Shown: in pieces, positions 22,309-23,704 of the stretch
How the letters are laid out: every line of letters starts with the position of its first letter
Numbering within the stretch: position 1 is the first letter of the stretch
Origin: Geothrix sp. 21YS21S-2
GTDB taxonomy: Bacteria; Acidobacteriota; Holophagae; Holophagales; Holophagaceae
DNA length: 64,000 nucleotides
NCBI RefSeq assembly: GCF_030846775.1
Contig: NZ_CP132910.1
Location: 5,087,001-5,151,000 of the forward strand
Direction of reading: 5' to 3'
Program-made: the position numbers and the translations under genes
Notes under the pieces: generated by a model
What the model was told of the DNA's origin: nothing
Seen by the model: the letters and a program-made list of their open reading frames with translations, nothing else
The model's database searches: none

Positions 22309-23053
22309 GGGGACGGGTCATCGAGGAAACTGGAAAAGATGGGATGTCTGGTTCTGGACCATATTCCAGGATGTCCACCGGATGCAGCATTACCCGGATA
22401 TTCACCGGATTGGGCTCCGGGGCGGCTGGAAGGGCGGCGGGAAAGGCGGCCGTGGAACCGGCCAGGGACGGAGCACCGGTGGCGGGCAGGGGCGGGGAGG
22501 GAAGGGGTCCAGATGGGGGAATTCCCGGATGGGGCCGGGGGAGCCGCCGGTGATCGAGAGGGCTTCGGATTCGCGGAGGGGACGCATGGGGCCTCCATGG
22601 AGGGCTCTGGACCTCAGGATGGGCCGGGCCGCTTTCCAGGCCAGGGCGGCGGCGACTTCCGTCCGGGTTCCGCCGGGTTTCAGCACGGACCTCAGCCTGA
22701 GATCCACTGAGACGGATTTGTCCGCGGTTTCCATTTTGGGTTCTGCACGGAGTACTTGTTCTCGACGAACCCAAGATGCCACGAGTTCACGGGTGCCGAC
22801 CTGTTTCCCGATGAATCCGGAGAACCCCAACGAAGAGCCTATCGCCGAGTCGCCGAGGCAGCCGAGGATCGCCGAAGAATAAAAAAAGATCTTTTCCCGG
22901 CGAACCTCGCCCCTCGGCGATGGGCTTTTCGTTTCAAGTAGTCTGAATGAAGGGGGTCAGGACGGCCTTCCTTCCGCGGATGCCGAGACCCGGCAGGTGC
23001 TCTGGGGCGGACGCACCCAAACCTCGGGCCACACGGGCAGGAGGCCAGGCGCG
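22309..23053. other. Gene-poor 745-nt stretch
   Basis: No reading frame here looks like a known protein. A minus-strand frame runs through about 22402-22950 without stops (its TTG-initiated part begins at 22830), but its translation is rich in Pro/Arg and its 5' part overlaps the hairpin element. Base composition is less GC-rich than the flanking genes. The right third holds strong stem-loops (see 22732-22933). Short direct repeats with the core CCGGAT occur around 22375-22415. It could be a decayed gene plus an inserted repeat. Confidence 0.5.
22732..22933 (+). ncRNA. Candidate structured RNA or dispersed hairpin element
   Basis: Three nested or adjacent stems. (1) 22732-22743 pairs with 22767-22778, 12 bp, one mismatch being G-U on plus-strand RNA. 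(2) 22829-22849 pairs with 22913-22933, 21 bp, both non-Watson-Crick positions being G-U on plus-strand RNA. (3) Inside it, 22863-22874 pairs with 22898-22909 (CGAGG/CCTCG and CGCCG/CGGCG around a 2x2 internal loop), capped by an A-rich loop that includes the palindrome AAAAGATCTTTT (22884-22895). The left side also has near-tandem TCGCCGAG units (22842-22876). All wobble positions favour plus-strand RNA. Confidence 0.45.
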
Positions 23054-23704
23054 TCAGTTCCCCTTCCCGGTGCCCAGCAGCTTCCCCACCGCGCTCACCA
23101 GGTGCTCCGCCTCGGCTTCCGGCGGCAGGACCGGATGATCGCCCGGCACCAGGTCCCCGACCCCCAGGAACGGGATGCCCGCCAGTTCGGCGGCATGGCG
23201 GTCATGGGGACGGTCGCCCACGTAGAGGTGCGGGCCCTTGCAGCCGGCCATGGCCATGCGGATGAGGCCGGCGCGGTCCAGCCGGGGCAGGCTCCCCAGG
23301 CGGGGGATGCGCGGATCCACGCCCAGGAGGCCGGCCTTGAAGGCGAGGACCCTCGGGACGTTCCCGGAAACCAGCCAGACGGCGCGGCCGGCGTCCACCA
23401 GGCGGGCCATGCCGTCGATGAGCCCCCGGAAGGCGGTGGGGGCGTGGCCCTGGGGGTGGAAGGCGTCCTCGAACCGGGCGAGGCACGCGGCCTCGTAGGC
23501 GGCGTAGTGGGCCTCGGACATGGGGACTCCGAAGCGCATGGCGTGGAGCTCGCCCATGATCTCCCAGTCGGTGGAGCCGGTGCAGCGGCGCAGCTGCTCC
23601 ACGGTGGGTTCGGCGCCCCAGAGGTCGCCCAGGGCCTTCCTGAGCAGCACGTAGCCGCCGCCGAACTGTCCGAGTGTGCCGTCGAGGTCGAAGCAGAGTG
23701 GCAT
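23054..23704 (-). CDS. HAD-family phosphatase (haloacid dehalogenase-like)
   Basis: 216 residues. Motif I CFDLDGTLGQF at the N-terminus, motif II VWLVSGN, a lysine in LAFKAG, and motif IV YVGDRPHDRHAAELAGI. The helical cap lies after motif I (C1 type), as in phosphoglycolate phosphatase-like enzymes, but the substrate is unknown. The ATG at 23704 is chosen because it starts 5 residues before motif I, although its GGAGG is only 1 nt away; a TTG at 23722 would add six residues. The gene is divergent from the one at 23765. Confidence 0.85.
   Translation of the reverse strand: MPLCFDLDGTLGQFGGGYVLLRKALGDLWGAEPTVEQLRRCTGSTDWEIMGELHAMRFGVPMSEAHYAAYEAACLARFEDAFHPQGHAPTAFRGLIDGMARLVDAGRAVWLVSGNVPRVLAFKAGLLGVDPRIPRLGSLPRLDRAGLIRMAMAGCKGPHLYVGDRPHDRHAAELAGIPFLGVGDLVPGDHPVLPPEAEAEHLVSAVGKLLGTGKGN

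Follow-up and report, generated by a model that had tools for sequence, protein, structure and literature searches.

A gene-less palindrome of tandem units in an insertion-sequence relic of Geothrix sp. 21YS21S-2 and its probable kinship with GxxExxY nuclease genes bracketed by inverted arrays

The palindrome of short tandem units at positions 22829-22933 of a 64-kb stretch of Geothrix sp. 21YS21S-2 DNA (the window, meaning the whole stretch that was analysed) is best read, with a probability of about 0.6, as a gene-less and now inert representative of a mobile family that consists of a nuclease gene and inverted unit arrays. Comparison across loci shows that it is built like the paired, inverted arrays (units of 8-10 bp) which bracket GxxExxY genes in many phyla, and alignments of the surrounding DNA show a decayed gene-less palindrome that entered the leader of an ISL3-family insertion sequence (IS) and spread with it. 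The features on which this reading depends are the following.

22591-23072, no strand: lineage-specific stretch containing the element; 66 bp stand in its place in the nearest relative, G002
22732-22778, minus strand: remnant of a transposase-leader hairpin, CATCTTGGGTTC ... GAACCCAAAATG on the minus strand, from leader alignments
22759-22967, minus strand: ISL3-homologous stretch, from the transposase start to the right inverted repeat, 80% (BLASTN)
22829-22879, plus strand: left palindrome arm, made of CGCCGAGG-type units in tandem: TCGCCGAG TCGCCGAGG CAGCCGAGG ATCGCCGAA
22880-22894, no strand: short A/T-rich centre, TAAAAAAAGATCTTT; the site of the GxxExxY gene in autonomous-looking relatives
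22895-22933, plus strand: right palindrome arm, CCCGGCGAACCTCGCCCCTCGGCGATGGGCTTTTCGTT; its counterparts in the IS-borne copies are about 9 bp longer

A reading made from the sequence alone (hereafter the sequence-only reading) had placed here a 21-bp stem (22829-22849 with 22913-22933) and a 12-bp hairpin (22732-22743 with 22767-22778), and both proved to be correctly located, the former with 19 of 21 Watson-Crick pairs plus two G-U on the plus strand and the latter with 11 of 12 and one T-G. An inverted repeat of the quality of the 21-bp stem (arms of 21, at most two mismatches, loop of 20-149) is unique in the 64-kb window and was found in none of six dinucleotide shuffles. The near-tandem CGCCGAG units described earlier are also present, and it is because the units are tandem that two pairing registers exist; the switch that had been proposed from these registers left no sign. 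In this regard, units of the CRCNRAGR kind, 8-10 bp long, form two inverted arrays, forward first, at 22842-22878 and 22895-22921, in the same order as the upstream and downstream arrays at GxxExxY genes, with 15 bp and no GxxExxY gene between the two arms of the palindrome; no further array of CRCNRA(G/T)-kind units with three units occurs in the 64-kb window. A T-rich tract follows the right arm, and a simple scan found neither an intrinsic terminator nor a sigma-70 promoter at the feature.

The sequence-only reading had linked such sequences with GxxExxY-family genes, and the link was correct: similar arrays accompany GxxExxY genes in this genome and in many phyla. The accompanying remark that no such gene is present holds for the window locus, the genome itself having ten matches to TIGR04256. 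Seven of the ten lie in near-identical 1.87-kb elements with an IS630-like DDE transposase (PF13358), where a palindrome of CGCCGAGG-type units is found between the transposase and the GxxExxY gene, and this IS630-like element could itself move most of the ten. In the congener G001, where 28 GxxExxY matches were counted and several are fragmentary, the family has thus both expanded and decayed.

GxxExxY genes stand between inverted arrays in other Acidobacteriota and, beyond these, at 80 loci taken from named genomes across many phyla, among them Bacteroidota, Chloroflexota, Planctomycetes, Verrucomicrobia, Proteobacteria, Omnitrophota and methanogenic archaea. When the 300 bp before and the 300 bp after each GxxExxY gene were aligned in inverted orientation, the arm score had a median of 42; mispaired arms (taken from different loci) had a median of 19 and far flanks one of 20. 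The 95% level of these far flanks was exceeded at 90 of 117 loci, and the 99.9% level of random window positions at 82 of 135. Tandem units in forward orientation were present upstream of the gene at 82 of 129 loci, and units in reverse were present downstream of it at 72 of 129, as against one of 129 in the far flanks, and about a quarter to a third of the GxxExxY loci are without clear arms. The unit sequence is specific to each locus and the arms within one locus match, as illustrated within a single genus by CGCAGATGA, ACACCGATGA, GCGGAGG, CACCAAGA, CACGAAGGA, ACAGGATTA, CGCGAATGA and others, each occurring in both arms. The agreement between arms extends from the unit to its mirror order: identity reached 0.88 in register, compared with 0.63 for the best alternative register, a comparison tilted towards the former because the alignment itself chose the register. 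Moreover, the similarity of arms and units correlated with that of the proteins (rho 0.36, and 0.31 for pairs below 60% identity), the observed value being reached in none of 300 permutations, and common descent of gene and arms alone can give such a correlation. Matched inverted arrays were also observed around TIGR02436 four-helix-bundle (S23/IVS-type) genes of Acidobacteriota (L245-L274), 18 of 20 scoring above control, with units of another grammar (GGGACCT, GGCAGATG, GGATAGA, TTAGGCA, GTGAATC and others).

The GxxExxY protein belongs to PF13366 (PDDEXK_3) in the PD-(D/E)XK nuclease superfamily (E 6.7e-45), and its residues D65, E75 and K77 are invariant in an alignment of 12 sequences. 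A search by sequence found no solved homologue. A predicted model (pLDDT 89, pTM 0.81) gave as best PDB matches in Foldseek three PD-(D/E)XK nucleases, namely lambda exonuclease, SSO0001 and an archaeal Holliday-junction resolvase, with probabilities of up to 0.99 and E-values that are modest (0.006 at best). Such a predicted fold would fit a nuclease, resolvase-like or hairpin-processing, with the inverted arrays of its own locus as substrate.

Filled, empty and gene-less states of one and the same site can be compared in the interval that separates a thiolase gene from the following gene in genomes described here as Geothrix-like. Among the 30 loci examined, nine carry arms and gene, 14 are short and empty and six contain gene-less palindromes, these last with yet other units. 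Both arms switch unit together at this site, CGCAGATG being found at three loci and CACAGATT at six, and at a second site, with about a dozen empty alleles, CACCAAG in both arms alternates with CGCCAAG in both. This paired change may reflect either repeated insertion or a change of unit in place. Neither a target-site duplication nor an exact element end could be defined at the compared sites, duplications being unreadable because the flanks have diverged, and no transposition event was seen among the copies and alleles compared.

A search of the Geothrix sp. 21YS21S-2 genome with the feature located 59 matching stretches (those found by the search, not an exhaustive count), which bears out the earlier guess of a dispersed repeat; a single genomic copy, named in the sequence-only reading as a refutation, is thus not what is found. 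Dozens of gene-less palindromes are dispersed in the genome. Those at many places outside the ISL3 copies often adjoin stop codons and show two topologies, with the arms in one order or the other, besides occurring as single arms; the Form A copies of this genome have the arm order opposite to the GxxExxY arrangement, and some gene-less palindromes sit in remnants of an IS630-like element. Two gene-less copies were checked for an empty orthologous site, and for each a congener has one: that of L104 is empty in G005, and the palindrome of L111 is absent from G002. The gene-less palindromes of L095 and L096 (G000:C1:776000 and 1605000 regions) are flanked by TAGGCCG(C/T)CAGAA, which resembles the end of the GxxExxY-carrying IS630-like element, so that both look like miniature derivatives.

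As for the carrier, the ISL3-homologous stretch of the window (BLASTN against L062, L063, L064 and L065) corresponds at about 80% to the leader of an IS of which the genome has five full copies, near-identical, 1.57 kb long and with equal scores. These encode an ISL3-type DDE transposase (PF01610, E 6.5e-64; NF033550, E 6.7e-97) and end in the terminal inverted repeats GGTTCTTCACGGATTT ... AAATCCGTGAAGAACC. The window copy has neither the transposase nor the right IS end, and instead of terminal inverted repeats at both ends it contains at most one such stretch, at 22739-22751. That stretch, GGTTCTGCACGGA, resembles an ISL3 inverted repeat at the left end, yet the same bases also align as transposase leader, and it may be either. 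Other reduced copies exist, L066 being a deletion derivative with the left 90 bp fused to the right end, and L067-L070 having no transposase match adjoining the shared region. Taken together with the full copies, the alignments show the window copy to be a deletion relic of an ISL3-family IS, most likely inert today. Since G002 has only its 66 bp at the orthologous spot, the element is either recent in this lineage or was lost in G002. A second small lineage-specific insertion lies at 22340-22440, where some 80-100 bp after a GIY-YIG-like gene are missing from the G002 orthologue. Two of the five full ISL3 copies, those of L062 and L065 (G000:C1:3668000-3675500 and 1224000-1231500), are interrupted by one element of about 2.4 kb, inserted at different positions in the two, and 2,021 bp of L063 (4350-6370) and L066 (1405-3425) are 99.95% identical, as a recently copied element adjoining ISL3 copies.

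The 12-bp hairpin has its counterpart just before the transposase start of the ISL3 elements, whose message corresponds to the minus strand of the window. It was aligned among the ISL3 copies of this genome and the relatives in G007, G010, G013 and G019, and it is also present in ISL3 homologues of other genera. In the window, the hairpin contains a loop insertion of 18-19 nt peculiar to this copy, which has moreover lost the outer leader stem and the ribosome-binding region. The consensus leader fold on the transposase strand comprises 20 pairs, and at six of these one sequence or more has both partners changed; covariation in this hairpin is suggestive only, given the relatedness of the sequences and a small covariation term.

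Several other explanations have to be weighed against a gene-less member of a mobile family. The palindrome might simply serve regulation within the ISL3 element, for instance as a terminator or an insulator upstream of the transposase, and have spread only with the IS; its presence in all five full copies, where it separates the right inverted repeat from the transposase leader, and the T-rich tract after its right arm agree with such a role. However, in the ISL3 relatives of G007, G010, G013 and G019 the leader adjoins the inverted repeat directly and the array insertion of roughly 240 bp is lacking, which indicates that the palindrome was inserted into the IS leader in Geothrix sp. 21YS21S-2; with many copies of this genome lying outside ISL3 and a negative terminator scan at the window copy, we regard this explanation as quite improbable. 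A structured RNA or switch on the plus strand, with folding of the transcript keeping the stems, is what the sequence-only reading had drawn from three non-Watson-Crick positions, all of them G-U on the plus strand. The positions are indeed as described, and the plus strand folds strongly (z = -5.75 relative to shuffles), but that all three should favour the same strand has a two-sided probability of 0.25, so the argument is weak taken alone. Selection on RNA predicts an excess of G-U over A-C, and mismatches scored between matched arms in the sense orientation amounted to 119 G-T versus 135 A-C over 102 GxxExxY loci (p = 0.35), 31 versus 40 when counted per locus, and 7 versus 8 in six ISL3-linked copies of Geothrix sp. 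21YS21S-2. As there is no such excess, the arms look maintained as DNA, through selection for a DNA hairpin or cruciform, recombination or template switching, and this is the chief reason for departing from the sequence-only reading. The minus strand outfolds every shuffle as well (z = -3.39), the locus is absent from the nearest relative, the 12-bp hairpin is the minus-strand IS leader, and an Rfam scan gave no significant family in the window (the best sub-threshold match had 14 bits against a gathering score of 50). With no strand bias in the arms and no Rfam match, the RNA switch was rejected, and a plus-strand RNA of any kind now seems very hard to sustain.

It is less simple to dispose of purely passive palindromes, in which template switching during replication would correct quasi-palindromes and GxxExxY would be a cargo irrelevant to mobility. 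The arms match without strand preference and in mirror order, as templated correction gives, tandem units slip easily, and the four-helix-bundle genes of TIGR02436, which are not nucleases, are bracketed too. What this account leaves unexplained is why units of one grammar stand at GxxExxY genes and hardly ever in their far flanks, why the D, E and K residues are conserved and why units and protein covary, and we hold it to be unlikely. The reading as a member of a mobile family would proceed as follows. An array, a GxxExxY nuclease gene and an inverted array would form one mobile unit, whose two arms would adopt a DNA hairpin or cruciform; the element's own nuclease would recognise and process this arm structure and could thereby mobilise the unit, in a way that may be likened to the dependence of REP palindromes on the RAYT protein, and the gene-less palindromes would be non-autonomous derivatives. 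Extended to the whole family, the proposal is that GxxExxY proteins are nucleases of widespread mobile elements with locus-variable inverted arrays as ends, that arms and protein co-evolve, and that gene-less palindromes, that of the window among them, descend from such elements as non-autonomous forms which are resolved or copied in the shape of DNA hairpins or cruciforms; we advance this general form tentatively, as an idea with somewhat less than even odds.

GxxExxY proteins are common without an assigned role, and array-type palindromes are scattered in environmental genomes. Linking the two via filled, empty and gene-less alleles provides one testable mobile-element hypothesis, and the paired change of units in the arms, along with the correlation with the protein, raises the question of whether each nuclease recognises its own repeat. 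The four-helix-bundle parallel hints that small genes enclosed by inverted arrays make up a general class. No description of elements made of GxxExxY and inverted arrays was found in a search of the open journal literature, and as far as that literature goes this appears to be an undescribed and widespread class of small mobile elements.

Among known systems, the MITEs of insertion sequences offer a first likeness, as the window copy and L066-L070 consist of IS ends and leader without transposase; they differ in that the palindrome is foreign to the ancestral ISL3 element and occurs alone as well. REP/BIME palindromes with their RAYT transposases (PMC2817692, PMC3116915) are likewise dispersed and intergenic, depend on a single protein family for their association and include copies with and without the gene. 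GxxExxY is, however, a homologue of PD-(D/E)XK nucleases whereas RAYT is a Y1/HUH transposase, and the GxxExxY arms consist of arrayed 8-10 bp units with a sequence that varies by locus; in this line, no RAYT (TnpA-REP, HUH Y1) was found beside the arrays at the loci examined, the adjoining protein being PF13366. The intervening sequences of 23S rRNA with an S23/four-helix-bundle gene (PMC4990558) differ in that GxxExxY is another protein and in that the copies examined here occupy ordinary intergenic spaces, with arms lacking RNA-strand bias. Both have in common a small gene inside a complementary stem and the behaviour of a selfish insert, and the TIGR02436 genes located outside rRNA are themselves found between matched unit arrays.
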